DNA of 64,000 bases. Source: Mycolicibacterium fluoranthenivorans (GTDB lineage: Bacteria; Actinomycetota; Actinomycetes; Mycobacteriales; Mycobacteriaceae). Shown piece after piece: positions 34,610 through 45,649 of this stretch; position 1 is the first letter of the stretch; every line of letters begins with the position of its first letter. The notes beneath the pieces are model-generated. The model saw nothing but the letters and a program-made list of their open reading frames with translations, was not told the origin of the DNA and did no database searches. The stretch covers positions 2,914,001 to 2,978,000 of the forward strand of contig NZ_JAANOW010000001.1 in the NCBI RefSeq assembly GCF_011758805.1, read 5' to 3'. The translations under genes and the position numbers were made by a program.

Positions 34610-36819
<2,210 letters not shown>

Positions 36820-36845
<26 letters not shown>

Positions 36846-37281
36846 CCTCGTCGAGCTCCCCGGCACCGCTCACGACGAAGCCCAGACTGTCGTAGACGGC
36901 GCGCGCCCGGGCATTGTCGACGTTCACCCGCAGCGTGACGTGGCGCACCCGCTGGGTGCGGGCCCAGCGCACCGCTTCGGCGACCAGGGTCCGGCCCAGG
37001 CCCTGGCCGCGCGCCGCCGGGTCCAGCCACAGCGAGTAGAGGTAGACCGCCTCGGAGCCCTGCCGCTGGGCGCCGATGAGACCGACCGGGTGGTGGTCCA
37101 CCACCACGGCGAACTGGGCGTGCGCGCGCAGGCGCCGCCGCCACTGGGCGGCGGTGAACGTCGATTCCTGACGGAACTGGGGATCGTCGGAGCCCAGCGA
37201 GTCGGTGAGCGCGCGCAGGCGCACACCCGCGAAGGCGCGCCAATCGGTCTCGGTCAACCGGGCCACCCGTGCCTCACCCAT
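36820..37281 (-). CDS. GNAT N-acetyltransferase
   Basis: 153 residues with the GNAT fold: VARLTETDWRAFAGVRLRALTDSLG, the acetyl-CoA binding motif LWLDPAARGQGLGRTLVAEAVRWA (R/Q-x-x-G-x-G/A, near residues 85-108) and LRVNVDNARARAVYDSLGF. Substrate unknown. The ATG at 37281 is preferred; a GTG slightly upstream is possible. It overlaps the PH-domain gene tail to tail and has no counterpart at this place in M. tuberculosis. Confidence 0.85.
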
Positions 37282-37341
37282 GCGTGTGCCTGTCCCGCCG
37301 TCGCGCCTCACGCCGTCCAGTATCGCCGCTGATCGCTGCGG

Positions 37342-37347
37342 TAGTAT
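37342..37347 (+). promoter_or_regulatory. Candidate -10 box of the murL-murD2 operon
   Basis: TAGTAT, a good TANNNT match, 4 and 10 bases before two in-frame ATGs (37352, 37358). It suggests a leaderless or near-leaderless transcript for the whole unit. Confidence 0.5.
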
Positions 37348-37351
37348 CGGC

Positions 37352-38083
37352 ATGTCGATGACTACTCTGGAGTTCGTATCAACCTCGGCTGACGGCCTAT
37401 CCGAAAGCGCCACCCCGCTCGTCTCGGCAGCTGCGCTCATCACGGGTCCGGGAACCCACCCCACGGTCACCCTTCCGGTGGTGCCCGGCCGCCCGCCCGA
37501 CACCGAAGCCGTCTGGCACTGGCTCGCCGAACCCGCGGATTTCTTCGGTATCGAAATGCCCGCCGTCGCGCACTTGCGGCGTGCCCTCACCGATTTCACC
37601 GACGAACTGCAGCGCAGGCACGGTCCGCTGACCGCCGCCGTCACCGTCGCGGTCGTGGATGCCCACTTCGTCGTCAGTGGCACGCCCATCGTCCCGGTCC
37701 GCACCGAGCCCGTGCACCTGGCGCGGTGCTCGATGCCACCCCCCATGCCCTCCTGGCGACAGATGGCCGCCCGCACCACCAGCCGCGCCGCGCAGCTGCG
37801 CACCGAGCGTGAGCTCGCCGGTTCCGGTCACGCCGACGCGGTACCCACCGATTCCGGCCACGTCGCAGTGCCGCTGCTGGGCGCGCTGGTGTGCGATACG
37901 CCCGGCGGCCGCGTGGGTCTCGGCGCCGCCCGGCTGGGCCGGCTGCGCGCCGCCGGACTGCTCGACACGTCGACGACACTCACCGACGCGTCGCTGGAGC
38001 TGGCCGCGGTGACGCGGGCGTGGTGGGTGTCCCCGCGATACGAGACCCACCCTGTCGCCTCGATCGGGGAGCTTCGATGGTGA
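37352..38083 (+). CDS. Lysine-free protein upstream of murL, distantly like a fold-type IV PLP protein
   Basis: 243 residues, not recognised with confidence. It contains no lysine at all, remarkable for this length. The C-terminal half (PSWRQMAARTTSRAAQLRTERELAGSGHADAVPTD..., later LGALVCDTPGGRVGLG) resembles the layout of class IV aminotransferases around their catalytic-lysine KT-x-N strand and TEG/SNLF segment, with Arg in place of Lys; this is a weak inference. If correct, it would be a pseudoenzyme or a binding protein. It overlaps murL by 7 nt, so it is likely to act with MurL/MurD2. ATG 37358 may be the true start. Confidence 0.65.
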   Translation: MSMTTLEFVSTSADGLSESATPLVSAAALITGPGTHPTVTLPVVPGRPPDTEAVWHWLAEPADFFGIEMPAVAHLRRALTDFTDELQRRHGPLTAAVTVAVVDAHFVVSGTPIVPVRTEPVHLARCSMPPPMPSWRQMAARTTSRAAQLRTERELAGSGHADAVPTDSGHVAVPLLGALVCDTPGGRVGLGAARLGRLRAAGLLDTSTTLTDASLELAAVTRAWWVSPRYETHPVASIGELRW

Positions 38084-39414
38084 GCACATTCCGCCCGGAA
38101 TCCTTCGACGCCCTGGTGATCGAGGGCTACGACGTCGGTGCCGGCGGCGTGCTGAATCTGCACTACACCCTGCGCGGCCCGGATCCGGTCCGCTTCACCG
38201 AGGTGATCGACTTCGGCGCCGGTCTGGCGGGCGCGGCACCGCATCCGAAGCTGACCGGGCTGCTCGCCTTGACCTGCTCGCTGAGTTACTACAAGGCCGC
38301 CGCCCCACCCAGGATCGAAATCGCTTTTCCAACAAGCGAATTCGAGAAGCAGTATCTTCGGAACCTGGTCGAGGGCGGGCTGGGTGAATTCGCCTATCGC
38401 AACGAGTTGCCGGGAGCGCTGAGCCCGGAGATCATCGGACCGGACGCTGAAGGCACCGCGGCCGCCGAGGACGTGGCGGACGCCTGGGATCCGGGGGGCA
38501 CGCCGCTGGTACCGGTAGGCGGCGGCAAGGACTCGGTGGTCAGTATCGAGGCGTTCCGCCGCCATGGGGTGAAGCCGGTCCTGTTCAGCGTCAACAGGTA
38601 TGACCCCATCGACCGCTGTATCGAGGTCAGCGGGCTGGACAGCGTGCACGTCCGGCGCCGAATCGACCGTGCGCTGATCGAGGCCAACGCCAACGGCGCC
38701 CACAACGGCCACGTCCCCGTCACGGCCATCAACAGTGTGATCGGTCTGATCGTGGCCGACGCCAACGGTTTCGGGCCGGTGGTGCTGTCCAATGAACGGT
38801 CCTCCAACGTGGGCAACATCGAGTGGCTGGGCCGCGATATCAACCACCAGTGGTCCAAGAGCATCGCCTACGAGACGCTGCTGCGGGACACGCTGTCGCA
38901 TTACGGGCTGAACCCGGACAGGTACTTCTCGCTGCTGCGTGGGCTCTCCGAGTCCGAGATCGCCGACCGGTTCGCCACCTGCACCGAGTATTTCGATGTC
39001 TTCACCAGTTGCAACCGGCTGTTCGCCCTGGATCCGGCGCGCCGGGCCACCTCGTGGTGCGGGCACTGCCCGAAATGTCAGTTCGTCTTCGTGCTGCTGG
39101 CACCCCGGCTGGGGCGGGCCCGTCTGGAGGAGATCTTCGGCGCCGACCTGTTCGACGACGCCGCCCAGTACGACGGGTTCGCCGATATCCTCGGTCTCGG
39201 CGTGCACAAGCCGTTCGAATGCGTGGGGGAGTACTACGAGGCCGCCGAATCGATGCTGGCCGTGCTCGACGACGACAGCTGGGGCGGGTTGACCCTTGTC
39301 GACCGATTCGCCGCGCGCCGCACCGAATTGGAGACCGTTGCGGCCGTCGAGGCGGACCCGACGCCCGTCGAACACCATGTGCCGGCGCGCTATGCGAAGC
39401 TGCTCGATGACTGA
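38077..39414 (+). CDS. murL: UDP-MurNAc-L-Ala-L-Glu epimerase (MurL)
   Basis: 445 residues resembling MurL, which uses ATP to convert the terminal L-Glu of UDP-MurNAc-L-Ala-L-Glu to D-Glu (pathway described in Xanthomonas). Visible features are a PP-loop-like VPVGGGKDSVVSIEAF (GGGKDS at 148-153) followed by VKPVLFSVN, the segment VVLSNERSSNVGN near 235-247 and a zinc-type cluster WCGHCPKC (Cys 328, 331, 334). GGGGAG precedes the ATG. The gene overlaps the upstream gene by 7 nt and murD2 by 8 nt, and the partner ligase next door strengthens the call. Confidence 0.85.
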   Translation: MVSTFRPESFDALVIEGYDVGAGGVLNLHYTLRGPDPVRFTEVIDFGAGLAGAAPHPKLTGLLALTCSLSYYKAAAPPRIEIAFPTSEFEKQYLRNLVEGGLGEFAYRNELPGALSPEIIGPDAEGTAAAEDVADAWDPGGTPLVPVGGGKDSVVSIEAFRRHGVKPVLFSVNRYDPIDRCIEVSGLDSVHVRRRIDRALIEANANGAHNGHVPVTAINSVIGLIVADANGFGPVVLSNERSSNVGNIEWLGRDINHQWSKSIAYETLLRDTLSHYGLNPDRYFSLLRGLSESEIADRFATCTEYFDVFTSCNRLFALDPARRATSWCGHCPKCQFVFVLLAPRLGRARLEEIFGADLFDDAAQYDGFADILGLGVHKPFECVGEYYEAAESMLAVLDDDSWGGLTLVDRFAARRTELETVAAVEADPTPVEHHVPARYAKLLDD

Positions 39415-40705
39415 TCTGACGGGTCGCGTCGTCGGTATCTGGGGGCTCGGCAAAGAAGGCCTGTCCATGGCCCGCACCGCCGCCGCGCACGGGGCCGCCC
39501 GCATCGTCGCGGTGGACGACCGCGCCGGTGAGCCGGTCGACACCGGTGTCGCCGGGTTGTCCGTGCACTACGGTGCGGAGTCCGTACCGCTGCTGAGCGA
39601 GACCGATATCGTGTTCGTCAGCCCCGGTGTGCCCTGGCGGAATCCGTTGTTCGAAGAGCTGCGGCGCACCGGTCCGCCGGTATCGAGTGCGGCCGACTGG
39701 TACCTGGCCGCGCACGGTGCGCGCACCATCGGCGTCACCGGGACCAAGGGTAAGAGCACCACGGCGGCGTTCCTGGCGCATCTGCTCGCCGGACTCGGGG
39801 TGCCGGCCGTGGCGGCGGGCAATATCGGCACCCCGCTGTCGGATCTGACGGCGCCGGACCGGGCACCGCACGACGCGCAGTGGGTGGTCGCCGAACTGTC
39901 CAGCCAGCAGTGCGCGCTGCTGCGCACGTCGCCCGCGGTGGCGGTGATCACCAACCTGTACCAGGACCATCTGGACTTTCACGGCGACATCCCGAGCTAT
40001 TACGCCGCCAAGGCGTGCATCTTCGAGCACGGGGCCCGGGTGCTGATCACCACACCGGAGGTGGTGGCGGCGCTGGACCGGGTCGGGATCACCGACCTGC
40101 CGCCGGTGCGGTTGGTGCACCCCAGCGAGGTGCGGGTTCCGCGGTCCGGCGGCGTGATGTCCTATGAACACAATGTCGCCAACGCGGCACTGGCCGCACT
40201 GGCCGCCGCCGAGGTGCTCGGGCGACCGGTCACCGACGCCGAGATCGATCACGCCGCGGGCACCTTCGCCGGTCTTCCGCACCGGCTGCAGACGGTGCGC
40301 ACCACCGGCGGGACCCGGTGGGTGGACGACACGCTGGCGACCACCGGTGAAAGCGTGGTCGCCGCACTGCGCGCCATGCCGGCCGGGGCGGCGGTGGCCC
40401 TGATCGTCGGCGGGATGGACCGCGGGCTCGACTACCAGGGTCTCGATGACTACCTGTGCAGCGGCGCGCGCCGGGTGACGCTGATCCAGGGGCCGTCCAA
40501 CGGCGCGCTGATCGGGACCCGGTTCGCGCAGGAGCATGCCGATCGCACGCACCGGGTGGACAGCCTGCAGGCGGCCGTCGGCACGGCCGCCGGGCTTGCC
40601 GATATCGACGTCGTGCTGCTGTCACCCGGCGCGGCCAGCTACGACACCTACCGCAACTACGAAGCCAAGGCCGCAGCATTCTGCGGCTACATCGACACGC
40701 TCTAA
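39407..40705 (+). CDS. murD2: UDP-MurNAc-L-alanine--L-glutamate ligase (MurD2)
   Basis: 432-residue Mur ligase. N-terminal Rossmann-like domain (VVGIWGLGKEGLSMARTAAAHG), ATP-binding GVTGTKGKSTTAAFLAHLL (GTKGKST 112-118), AELSSQQ, NLYQDHLDFHG and the C-terminal domain PHRLQTV...WVDDTLATTGES...GGMDRGLDY...LLSPGAASYDTYRNYEAKAAAF. Ordinary D-Glu-adding MurD has NDSKATN and SPACASFDQF-type sequences at the last two sites; here they are DDTLATTGES and SPGAASYDTY, as expected for the L-Glu-adding MurD2 class. The partner MurL directly upstream supports this. Confidence 0.87.
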   Translation: MTDLTGRVVGIWGLGKEGLSMARTAAAHGAARIVAVDDRAGEPVDTGVAGLSVHYGAESVPLLSETDIVFVSPGVPWRNPLFEELRRTGPPVSSAADWYLAAHGARTIGVTGTKGKSTTAAFLAHLLAGLGVPAVAAGNIGTPLSDLTAPDRAPHDAQWVVAELSSQQCALLRTSPAVAVITNLYQDHLDFHGDIPSYYAAKACIFEHGARVLITTPEVVAALDRVGITDLPPVRLVHPSEVRVPRSGGVMSYEHNVANAALAALAAAEVLGRPVTDAEIDHAAGTFAGLPHRLQTVRTTGGTRWVDDTLATTGESVVAALRAMPAGAAVALIVGGMDRGLDYQGLDDYLCSGARRVTLIQGPSNGALIGTRFAQEHADRTHRVDSLQAAVGTAAGLADIDVVLLSPGAASYDTYRNYEAKAAAFCGYIDTL

Positions 40706-40714: not shown

Positions 40715-42733
40715 GTGCCCGATCCAGCGACGTACCGGCCTGCGCCGGGTTCCATTCCGGTGGAACCCGGGGTCTACCGATTCCGGGATCCGCACGGCCG
40801 GGTGATCTACGTCGGCAAGGCCAAGAGCCTGCGCAGCCGGCTGAACTCGTATTTCGCCGATATCGCCGGGCTGGCGCCACGCACCCGGCAGATGGTGATG
40901 ACGGCGGGCAGCGTCGAGTGGACCGTGGTGTCCACCGAGGTCGAAGCGCTGCAGCTGGAATACAACTGGATCAAGGAGTTCGACCCGCGGTTCAACATCC
41001 GCTACCGGGACGACAAGTCCTACCCGGTGCTGGCGGTCACCCTCAACGAGGAGTATCCGCGGCTGTTCGTCTACCGCGGCCCGCGTCGCAAGGGCGTGCG
41101 TTACTTCGGCCCGTACTCACATGCGTGGGCCATCCGCGAGACCGTGGATCTGCTCACCCGGGTTTTTCCGGCCCGAACGTGTTCGTCGGGAGTGTTCAAG
41201 CGGCACAACCAGATCGACCGGCCGTGCCTGCTGGGCTACATCGACAAATGCTCGGCGCCGTGCGTCGGTCGGGTGAGCGCCGAACAGCACCGGCAGATCG
41301 TGCTGGACTTCTGCGATTTCCTGTCCGGTAAGACCGACCGGCTGGTGCGCGATATGGAGCGGCAGATGACCGCCGCGGCAGAGGATCTCGATTTCGAGCG
41401 GGCGGCACGGCTGCGCGATGACATCGGTGCGCTCAAACGCGCGCTGGAGAAGCAGACGGTGGTGTTCGGTGACGGTACCGACGCCGACGTGGTGGCCTTC
41501 GCCGCCGACGACCTGGAAGCGGCGGTGCAGGTGTTCCATGTGCGTGGTGGCCGGGTCCGCGGCCAGCGCGGCTGGGTGGTCGAGAAGACAGGTGAACCCG
41601 GGCAGTCCGGTGAGGGATACCTCGTCGAGCAGTTCCTCACCCAGTTCTACGGCGATCAGGCCGAGCTCAGCGCCGACGGCACCGGCAATCAGGACGAGAC
41701 CACCAACCCGGTGCCCAAACAGGTTCTGGTGCCGGTGCTTCCGGACAACGCCGACGAACTCGCCGACTGGCTCTCGGGTCTGCGTGGATCACGGGTGGCG
41801 CTGCGGGTCCCGGTGCGCGGTGCCAAGTTGGCGCTCGCGGAGACCGTGGGCCGCAATGCGAGAGAGGCGCTGACCCAACACAAGCTCAAACGTGCCGGCG
41901 ACTTCAACGCGAGATCGGAAGCCCTGCAGAGCATTCAGGATGCGCTGGAGCTGTCCGACGCGCCGCTACGCATCGAGTGCGTGGATATCAGCCACGTCCA
42001 GGGCACCGATGTGGTGGCCTCGCTGGTGGTGTTCGAGGACGGGCTGCCGCGCAAATCGGATTACCGGCACTATGCGATCCGGGAGGCGGCGGGCGGGGGC
42101 CGTTCCGATGATGTGGCCTCCATCGCCGAGGTGACCCGGCGCCGGTTCGCCCGGCACGTCGCCGACGCCGACCGGCCGATGGTGGCCGAGGGCAAGTCGC
42201 GCAAATTCGCCTACCCGCCCAACCTCTACGTCGTCGACGGTGGCGCACCCCAGGTCAACGCCGCCGCCACCGTGCTCGACGAGCTCGGCATCACCGATGT
42301 CGCCGTGATCGGGCTGGCCAAACGGCTCGAAGAGGTGTGGGTGCCGTTCCAGGACGACCCGGTGATCTTCCCGCGCAGCAGCGAAGGGCTGTATCTGTTG
42401 CAGCGCATCCGTGATGAGGCCCACAGGTTCGCCATCACGTTCCACCGCAGCAAACGGTCCAAGCGGATGACGGCGTCGGCACTGGACTCGGTGCCCGGTC
42501 TGGGTGAGCACCGGCGCAAAGCACTGGTCACCCACTTCGGGTCCGTGTCGCGGCTGTCGGCGGCCAGCATCGAGGACATCACCGCGGTGCCCGGAATCGG
42601 GCTGGCCACCGCGCGCGCCGTACTCGACGCCCTCGGCGAGGGTGCCGCGGGGTCGGGAGCAGCCGATTCCGACACGCCAGCGGCAGTTTTCGACAATGAT
42701 CGAACCGACCAAGATCAACAGGCATCGGGGTGA
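40715..42733 (+). CDS. uvrC: Excinuclease ABC subunit C
   Basis: Makes both incisions in nucleotide excision repair. 672 residues: GIY-YIG domain ([30 protein letters not shown], residues 14-45), UVR motif ([27 protein letters not shown] near 210-235), RNase H-like domain ([34 protein letters not shown]) and two HhH motifs ([34 protein letters not shown]). Stop overlaps rapZ as GTGA. Confidence 0.96.
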
Positions 42734-43620: not shown

Positions 43621-44675
43621 CAGCCCGTGTGGTGGCTCTCGGTGGCGGGCACGGTCTGTATGCCACCCTGTCCGCGGCCCGTCGGCTGACCCCGCACGTC
43701 ACCGCGGTGGTCACCGTCGCCGACGACGGTGGATCCTCGGGCCGGCTGCGCAGCGAACTGGATGTCGTGCCCCCCGGTGATCTGCGAATGGCGTTGGCGG
43801 CGTTGGCTTCTGACAGCCCGCACGGCCGGCTGTGGGCGACCATCCTGCAGCACCGGTTCGGTGGCAGCGGTGCGCTGGCAGGTCATCCGATCGGCAATCT
43901 GATGCTGGCGGGCCTCAACGAGGTGCTCACCGATCCGGTGACCGCCCTGGACGAACTCGGCAAGATCCTCGGCCTCAAGGGCCGGGTCCTGCCGATGTGC
44001 CCGATCGCCCTGCAGATCGAGGCCGATGTCGCCGGACTGGAGACCGATCCGCGGATGTTCCGGGTGATCAGGGGCCAGGTGGCCGTCGCCACCACGGTGG
44101 GCAAGGTGCGCCGGGTGCGGCTGTTGCCCGGTGACCCGCCGGCCACGCATCAGGCGGTGGACGCGATCATGGCCGCCGACCTCGTCGTGCTCGGCCCCGG
44201 GTCGTGGTTCACGAGTGTGATCCCGCACGTCCTGGTACCGCAGCTGGCCGCCGCCTTGCAGGCCACCACCGCCCGGCGGGCCCTGGTGCTCAACCTGGCG
44301 GCCGAACCGGGGGAGACGGCCGGATTCTCGGCTGAGCGGCACATCCATGTGCTGGCCCAGCATGCGCCCGGGTTCACCGTGGACGAGATCATCGTCGACG
44401 CGGCGAGGGTGCCCAGTGACCGGGAGCGCGAGCAGTTGGTGCGCACGGCCGCCCTGCTCGGTGCGGACGTGGAGTTTGCCGACGTGTCCCGGCCTGGTAC
44501 ACAGTTACATGACCCATCGATGCTGGCCGCCGCATTGGAGCGGGTCCGGCTGCGCGGCAGGGCATCACGTCCTGATGACAGCGATTCCACCGCTCCCCAC
44601 CCGGCCCGGCCGGTCGGGGGAGCAGAGGGGCAATCGACGGTGAATGTATCGAGGGGTGACGATTCGTGGCGATGA
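43617..44675 (+). CDS. yvcK: YvcK/CuvA family protein
   Basis: 352 residues: [63 protein letters not shown] and [20 protein letters not shown], all typical of the UDP-sugar-binding YvcK family. In M. tuberculosis CuvA is needed for normal cell shape and growth on some carbon sources. Overlaps rapZ (ATGA) and whiA. Confidence 0.93.
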
Positions 44676-45649
44676 CCGCTGAGGTGAAGGACGAACTGAG
44701 CCGGCTGGTCGTGAATTCGGTGAGTGCACGCCGGGCCGAGGTCTCCTCGCTGCTGCGCTTCGCCGGTGGACTGCACATCGTGGCCGGCCGGGTGGTGGTC
44801 GAAGCCGAGGTGGATCTGGGCATCATCGCGCGCCGGCTGCGCAAGGACATCTACGACCTGTACGGCTACAACGCGGTGGTGCATGTGTTGTCGGCCAGCG
44901 GGATCCGCAAGAGCACCCGCTACGTGGTGCGGGTCGCCAAGGACGGCGAAGCCCTGGCCAGGCAGACCGGACTGCTCGACCTCCGGGGCAGACCGGTGCG
45001 CGGACTGCCCGCCCAGGTGGTCGGCGGCAGCGTCAACGACGCCGAAGCCGCCTGGCGCGGTGCGTTTCTGGCGCACGGTTCGCTCACCGAGCCGGGCCGG
45101 TCCTCGGCGCTGGAGGTCAGCTGCCCGGGTCCGGAGGCTGCGCTGGCGCTCGTCGGTGCGGCACGGCGGCTCGGGGTCAGCGCGAAGGCCCGCGAGGTCC
45201 GCGGGAGCGACCGGGTGGTGGTCCGCGACGGCGAGGCGATCGGGGCCCTGCTGACCCGGATGGGCGCCCAGGACACCCGGTTGACGTGGGAGGAGCGCCG
45301 GATGCGGCGCGAAGTCCGCGCCACCGCCAACCGGCTGGCCAATTTCGACGATGCCAACCTGCGTCGCTCGGCGCGCGCGGCGGTCGCCGCGGCCGCCAGG
45401 GTCGAGCGTGCCCTGCACATCCTGGGCGACACGGTGCCCGATCATCTGGCGCAGGCCGGCCGGTTGCGGGTCGAGCATCGGCAGGCATCGCTGGAGGAAC
45501 TGGGCCGGCTGGCCGAGCCGCCGATGACCAAGGATGCGGTTGCGGGCCGGATCCGGCGGCTGCTCTCGATGGCCGACCGCAAGGCCAAGCAGGACGGTAT
45601 CCCCGATACGGAGTCGGCGGTGACGCCGGACCTGCTCGACGACGCCTAG
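44666..45649 (+). CDS. whiA: WhiA sporulation/division regulator
   Basis: 327 residues: N-terminal LAGLIDADG homing-endonuclease-like domain ([42 protein letters not shown]) and C-terminal DNA-binding domain ([32 protein letters not shown]). Homologues regulate cell division and sporulation genes. GTG at 44666 or ATG at 44672 ([12 protein letters not shown]) could be the start. Convergent with the next gene, with only 3 bp between the stops. Confidence 0.95.

Follow-up and report, generated by a model that had tools for sequence, protein, structure and literature searches.

How does a mycobacterium bring D-glutamate (D-Glu) into the stem peptide of its wall when neither of the enzymes usually credited with that step can be detected? 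MurD is treated as a fixed part of mycobacterial wall synthesis and as a drug target. MurI is regarded in the same way (PMC5038272). The question is raised by 64,000 nucleotides (nt) of Mycolicibacterium fluoranthenivorans DNA (GCF_011758805.1, contig NZ_JAANOW010000001.1, positions 2,914,001 to 2,978,000, forward strand), hereafter the window, which holds an operon of three genes:

37352..38083, plus strand: gene 1, a 243-amino-acid (aa) open reading frame (ORF), fold-type-IV aminotransferase-like, with Arg141 where the lysine that carries pyridoxal phosphate (PLP) is expected.
38077..39414, plus strand: gene 2, MurL-like, a 445-aa ORF matching NF041275, with an AlphaFold2 (AF2) model at a predicted local distance difference test score (pLDDT) of 95.2.
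39407..40705, plus strand: gene 3, a MurD2-type Mur ligase, a 432-aa ORF placed by TIGR01087 (257.6 bits) and by its position in a tree.

An earlier, sequence-only reading of this DNA had described three overlapping genes, and the ORF coordinates bear this out, with overlaps of 7 nt between genes 1 and 2 and 8 nt between genes 2 and 3. The motifs that it listed are all present: GGGKDS and WCGHCPKC in gene 2, and GTKGKST, DDTLATTGES and SPGAASYDTY in gene 3. Its view of the pair is supported insofar as profile, tree, pairing and synteny make the two proteins MurL-like and MurD2-like. It overlooked the fold and the dead active site of gene 1, and the canonical-like state of two residues that bear on stereospecificity. 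It went on to propose that the pair gives this organism a second entry of D-Glu, and here we depart from it: neither a TIGR00067 MurI nor a canonical MurD is found in the genome, murD is gone from the division and cell wall (dcw) cluster, and murI is gone from its usual neighborhood. With MurI and canonical MurD not found and both ancestral loci without their gene, this pair appears to be the one remaining route. Very probably, then, this pseudo-transaminase/murL/murD2 operon is the sole path of D-Glu into the stem peptide, murI and murD having been lost while a murD relic and a dead partner were kept.

We surveyed 296 genomes of the same genus at a completeness of at least 90% (G008, which carries MurL and is 70% complete, was excluded). 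MurL is present in 32, or about one mycobacterial species in nine. TIGR00067 finds a MurI over its cut-off in none of these 32, compared with 263 of the 264 MurL-free genomes; 29 of the MurL-positive genomes give no match at all and three (G269, G302, G306) give matches below the cut-off. Likewise, canonical MurD at E ≤ 1e-60, counted from five candidates scored per genome and partly read by elimination from the list, is found in 0 of 32 MurL-positive and 261 of 264 MurL-free genomes. Among the matches listed, those over the TIGR01087 cut-off in the MurL-positive genomes are the MurL-linked ligases. The 32 genomes are related by descent and do not amount to 32 independent events. The check for canonical murD and murI elsewhere in this genome, which the sequence-only reading had called for, found neither by these searches. 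One murD-profile match in this genome (G000:C2:884936) was rejected as canonical murD, since by position it sits at the murC place of the dcw cluster.

MurD is essential. MurI, for its part, is described as essential in almost all bacteria (PMC5038272), and two Gordonia species retain part of the canonical pair; both points lend something to the idea of an accessory operon, providing a second route or serving a secondary metabolite, beside a MurI and a MurD that have diverged beyond detection. We consider this scarcely credible given the 0 of 32 count and the ancestral loci of this genome: both are closed, and the dcw cluster still contains a murD relic; a parallel second route was rejected on the absence of MurI and MurD from all 32 genomes and on the closed murD locus. 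Several observations weigh against a complete replacement. Detection is imperfect, as the MurL-free genome G270 matches TIGR00067 more weakly than the cut-off and the MurL-free genomes G118, G206 and G316 appear without canonical MurD. Gordonia alkaliphila has a MurL-MurD2 pair plus an over-cut-off MurI elsewhere, and G. malaquae has MurD2 plus canonical MurD, so that both are mixed states. The score of gene 2 against the MurL profile NF041275 lies below the curated cut-off of 700, and no assay of a mycobacterial MurL/MurD2 pair was found in the literature searched.

At the former murD locus, the dcw cluster of this genome (L130; genes named by position and reading) runs murE, murF, mraY, 156 nt, ftsW, murG, with murD missing and gene 3 located elsewhere; in the MurL-free genome G001, murD is present between mraY and ftsW. 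It is missing from that place in all 21 MurL-positive genomes read. The gap is 147-301 nt in 18 of them and 1044-1195 nt, with an ORF, in G176, G224 and G240; the one such ORF tested, that of G240, matches DUF5642. Every one of the 21 gaps contains a segment of 62-120 nt that aligns with canonical murD at about codons 400-445 (54.5-102 bits by blastn; the best of 840 dinucleotide shuffles reached 37.4 bits). In this genome the relic is:

G000:C2 about 882066-882173 (L130:8567-8674), outside the window, between mraY and ftsW: murD relic, ~100 nt.

This final test, with more intact murD references and dinucleotide shuffles, replaced a first one that separated poorly (28.5-43.9 bits by tblastn, where the best control reached 34.7; a blastn match below E 0.01 in 77 of 900 crude shuffles). 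Further, CGACACGC occurs in 20 of the 21 gaps (shuffle rate 0.017) and in each of 14 intact murD genes; the remaining gap has CGACACAC. The relic carries TGTGA-type repeats as well as a conserved GACAC motif. At ftsW of Streptomyces, GACAC is bound by WhiA, and from this it was suggested that ftsW has a promoter of its own within the dcw cluster (PMC3781837). By analogy, WhiA may bind the putative GACAC site in the mycobacterial relic, whose conservation points to an ftsW control element hidden in murD coding sequence; against this stands the caution, given in the same paper, that GACAC is a short and frequent motif (PMC3781837). In three MurL-positive genomes (L194, L196, L203) this ORF stands between mraY and the relic; that of L194, the one tested, is DUF5642 by Pfam.

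The murI locus is similarly vacant. By tblastn, murI was found there in 0 of 14 MurL-positive genomes and in both of two controls, and a rhomboid gene lies upstream in 13 of the 14. In this genome, 124 nt separate the rhomboid gene from the metallo-hydrolase gene, where murI would be. G214 (L168) has no rhomboid gene upstream of the metallo-hydrolase gene, which suggests a rearrangement. In the two Gordonia species (L028, L029), the MurL-MurD2 locus lies between rhomboid-like and metallo-hydrolase-like ORFs (named by eye; L029 has one more ORF before the hydrolase), that is, at the mycobacterial murI position, and is without gene 1.

On a uvrC tree of 38 rows (9 MurL-positive and 29 MurL-free, with L022 and L164 left out), the MurL-positive state needs two changes; across bootstrap trees the range is one to two, with one change in 46% of them. 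We therefore rejected a single origin as proven. The shared relic segment favors one murD loss.

Which glutamate enantiomer would gene 3 use? The possibility that the ligase is closer to canonical MurD, admitted by the sequence-only reading, holds insofar as gene 3 passes TIGR01087 (E 2.3e-76, 257.6 bits, cut-off 211.95). Micromonospora sp. ATCC 39149, however, has a MurL-linked ligase that passes too (285.8 bits), and canonical mycobacterial MurD scores 456.9. In a tree of 36 rows rooted with MurC (short search; long branches L031 and L012), gene 3 nests within the MurL-linked ligases, with Gordonia nearest, followed by a Propionibacteriaceae metagenome-assembled genome, Nocardioides/Microbacterium and Micromonosporaceae. 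Canonical MurD of E. coli, mycobacteria and G. malaquae falls outside (Shimodaira-Hasegawa-like approximate likelihood-ratio support of 92 for the MurL-linked side and 99 for Gordonia plus mycobacteria). Unlike in other mycobacteria, with their canonical MurI and MurD, both genes go undetected in MurL-positive species and the ligase branches with MurL-linked enzymes. Four residues bear on stereospecificity (roles from PMC8788868, where E. coli numbers omit the first Met):

39965..39967, plus strand: Asp187 (E. coli MurD D182; X. oryzae MurD2 E197), canonical state.
40334..40336, plus strand: Leu310 (E. coli MurD K319), state of other MurL-linked ligases.
40421..40423, plus strand: Arg339 (E. 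coli K348; X. oryzae MurD2 R358), MurD2 state.
40634..40636, plus strand: Ala410 (E. coli A414; X. oryzae MurD2 P433), canonical state.

This mixed set, which speaks against a simple assignment as MurD2, is found in all 39 mycobacterial gene 3 rows (some species twice). The MurD2-type Glu at the D182 position and Pro at the A414 position are both missing, as are the canonical lysines at K319 and K348. Asp at the D182 position also occurs in the MurL-linked ligases L012, L028, L029, L031, L060 and L087. In X. oryzae MurD2, the choice of L-Glu is set by E197 and R358: the single mutants E197D and R358K have changed specificity and the double mutant is switched, whereas P433A leaves specificity as it was (PMC8788868). 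That E197D alone alters stereospecificity counts against L-Glu use by gene 3, which has Asp187. Conversely, E. coli MurD came to accept L-Glu through the single change K319T. S. mutans MurD also has Arg at the K348 position (PMC8788868). By itself, the gene 3 sequence leaves the choice between L- and D-Glu unsettled, because two residues are like those of MurL-linked ligases and two like those of MurD.

It is in principle conceivable, though unlikely, that gene 3 has reverted to D-Glu and replaces MurD, that a transaminase or another racemase supplies free D-Glu, and that MurL acts elsewhere, for example on another peptide. Asp187 and Ala410 look canonical, as such a reversion would have it, and a class-IV transaminase (scoring 123-142 bits with TIGR01121, whose cut-off is 277) is commoner in MurL-positive genomes (26 of 32) than in MurL-free ones (1 of 10), a distribution that also tells against a sole route through MurL. 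It is nonetheless missing from 6 of the 32, and the copy in this genome has branched-chain and (R)-amine transaminases as its nearest solved relatives. None of the 42 genomes searched passes the TIGR01121 cut-off, and the transaminase was rejected as a D-Glu source on that ground, an exclusion that is incomplete. PF01177 proteins other than TIGR00067 MurI also occur in MurL-positive genomes; the one in this genome (207 bits) was rejected as MurI, as it is unmatched by TIGR00067 and adjoins a permease-like ORF, and it looks like a hydantoin-type racemase. Within gene 3, the K319 lysine, whose change to Thr made E. coli MurD permissive, is gone, and Arg339 is kept. Finally, MurL and MurD2 are adjacent in all 38 mycobacterial loci measured, as they are in the window. 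We infer that gene 3 uses L-Glu, mainly from the genomic swap and the absence of MurI. The class-IV transaminase gene of this genome (L181:4231-5250, G000:C1) stands beside permease-like and Alr-like ORFs, named by eye.

NF041275, the MurL family, is the sole NCBIfam match of gene 2 (E 6.3e-97, 324.9 bits). The match is too strong to be chance, as is that of gene 3 to TIGR01087, yet it stays under the curated cut-off of 700; MurL of Micromonospora sp. ATCC 39149 likewise scores under that cut-off (406.3). Two motifs stand out:

38518..38535, plus strand: GGGKDS, PP-loop-like, MurL residues 148-153; G148, G149, G150, D152 and S153 are invariant in 40 aligned MurLs.
39055..39078, plus strand: WCGHCPKC, MurL residues 327-334, forming a four-Cys set with Cys312.

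C312, C328, C331 and C334 are invariant in the same 40 sequences and would form a predicted metal site. The AF2 model has a QueC-like PP-loop fold and is nearest to QatC, of the QueC family. MurL shares this fold with the QueC, QatC and Cap9 enzymes but differs from them in sequence (~14% identity; no PADLOC match, and nothing convincing in a sequence search against Protein Data Bank chains) and in its expected substrate, a nucleotide-linked peptide. The likeness hints at chemistry open to QatC-type enzymes. In several Micromonosporaceae (L032, L034, L038, L039, L063), MurL occurs with no MurD2 match in the sequence available around it.

Gene 1 has no Pfam or NCBIfam match. The best structural matches of its AF2 model (pLDDT 89.1) are fold-type-IV transaminases. 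Combined in a profile, 58 relatives align with Curtobacterium CpuTA1 (1.6e-5), placing Arg141 opposite a lysine. We take that lysine to be the PLP lysine, from what is known of the family. The position is Arg in 56 and His in 2 of the 58 members, and 34 of them, as well as the window protein, contain no lysine at all. Gene 1 thus has a fold in common with the transaminases of M. tuberculosis (6q1r) and Curtobacterium (CpuTA1, 5k3w) but differs from them in the residue that takes the place of the PLP lysine, and it looks like a catalytically dead fold-type-IV protein. It lies upstream of MurL at each of the 38 mycobacterial loci examined (with two loci for some species; the contig-end fragment L018 of G008 was left out, and L016, from the same genome, has gene 1) and is absent from every non-mycobacterial MurL locus examined. 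Its fold and this constant association are what one would expect if gene 1 were a working PLP enzyme in this pathway, such as a D-amino-acid transaminase; with no lysine at that position in any of the 58 members, and none anywhere in 34, such activity is highly improbable.

The operon, the placement of its products, the absence of murI and murD, the murD relic and the missing lysine are all read directly from sequence; the MurD2 and MurL reactions are known for relatives and would be carried over to the mycobacterial pair by analogy. On this model, the operon would have been acquired between a GNAT gene and uvrC, with murI and murD lost afterwards. MurD2 would add L-Glu to UDP-MurNAc(or MurNGlyc)-L-Ala. 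MurL, as a PP-loop enzyme of QueC/QatC type, would adenylate that L-Glu at its alpha-carboxylate (with ATP going to AMP), a step proposed for X. oryzae MurL (PMC8788868), invert its carbon and then hydrolyze the adenylate, and the L-Ala-D-Glu product would pass on to MurE. About 100 nt of murD would have been kept owing to the embedded ftsW control element, and gene 1 would have been retained as a dedicated, catalytically dead partner. The full combination (a one-event swap, murD whittled to a ~100-nt WhiA-type ftsW element, an adenylate epimerase of QueC/QatC type and an obligate dead partner) we put forward only tentatively, as somewhat less than an even prospect.

The pathway resembles that of Xanthomonas oryzae, Micromonospora and Salinispora (PMC8788868) in its adjacent MurL-like and MurD2-like pair and in that MurI is not found. 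The mycobacterial version differs in its dead transaminase-like first gene and its Asp187/Ala410 ligase, in its restriction to some species while others keep MurI and MurD, and in the murD relic left behind. We found no account of the MurL pathway in mycobacteria in our searches of open-license literature listings; some mycobacterial copies are already named epimerase or L-Glu ligase in databases. We read this as a known alternative pathway, in a genus for which those searches gave no account of it, that apparently serves as a full replacement; a dead partner enzyme has been added, residues of the ligase are altered and part of the lost murD is kept. A MurI/MurD step thought universal in the genus seems not to be so, and MurL-positive species without MurI and MurD offer a natural experiment on D-Glu supply, on other roles of MurI and on the exchange of an essential pathway.

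The surroundings of the operon are conserved. In the window the order is ribA2, ribH, PH-domain gene, GNAT gene (minus strand), gene 1, MurL, MurD2, uvrC, rapZ, a further gene and whiA (PH, GNAT, uvrC and whiA named by family search, the rib genes and rapZ by reading). The nearest flanks and the candidate promoter are:

36351..36845, plus strand: bacterial PH-domain gene (PF10756, E 3.5e-27).
36820..37290, minus strand: GNAT acetyltransferase gene (PF00583, E 2.1e-19; start chosen by eye).
37342..37347, plus strand: TAGTAT, a -10-like element, 4 nt upstream of the ATG at 37352, with a further in-frame ATG (37358) at a distance of 10 nt.
40715..42733, plus strand: uvrC, on the far side of the insertion (Pfam UvrC domains).

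The insertion had been placed between the ribH/PH-domain gene and uvrC; the uvrC side stands, but the minus-strand GNAT gene separates the PH-domain gene from the operon. The ribA2-to-uvrC order is kept in all nine named mycobacterial loci (L019-L027), M. frederiksbergense, M. bacteremicum, M. hodleri and M. llatzerense among them; L021 has ~2 kb between MurD2 and uvrC, and the contig of L022 ends within uvrC. Reading 1500 nt upstream of uvrC in each of 30 MurL-free loci, we found the empty site, with GNAT 54-66 nt from uvrC, in four; PH lies 53-227 nt away in six (L151, L153, L157, L161-L163) and 661-1221 nt away in four (L148-L150, L160), and neither gene is within that span in 16.

The single -10 candidate predicted earlier was recovered as TAGTAT, and its distance from the start codon (4 or 10 nt) suggests a leaderless or near-leaderless mRNA. 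In all 32 upstream sequences reported, that of the window included, TAnnnT occurs no more than 20 nt ahead of a usable start. This count lends weak support to TAGTAT as the operon's putative -10 element, because the script favored starts with TAnnnT, duplicates and loci without a usable start were dropped, and the shuffle rate is 0.24. Lastly, whiA (window 44666-45649) is the fourth gene 3' of the MurL operon and the murD remnant carries a WhiA-type motif, possibly a coincidence.

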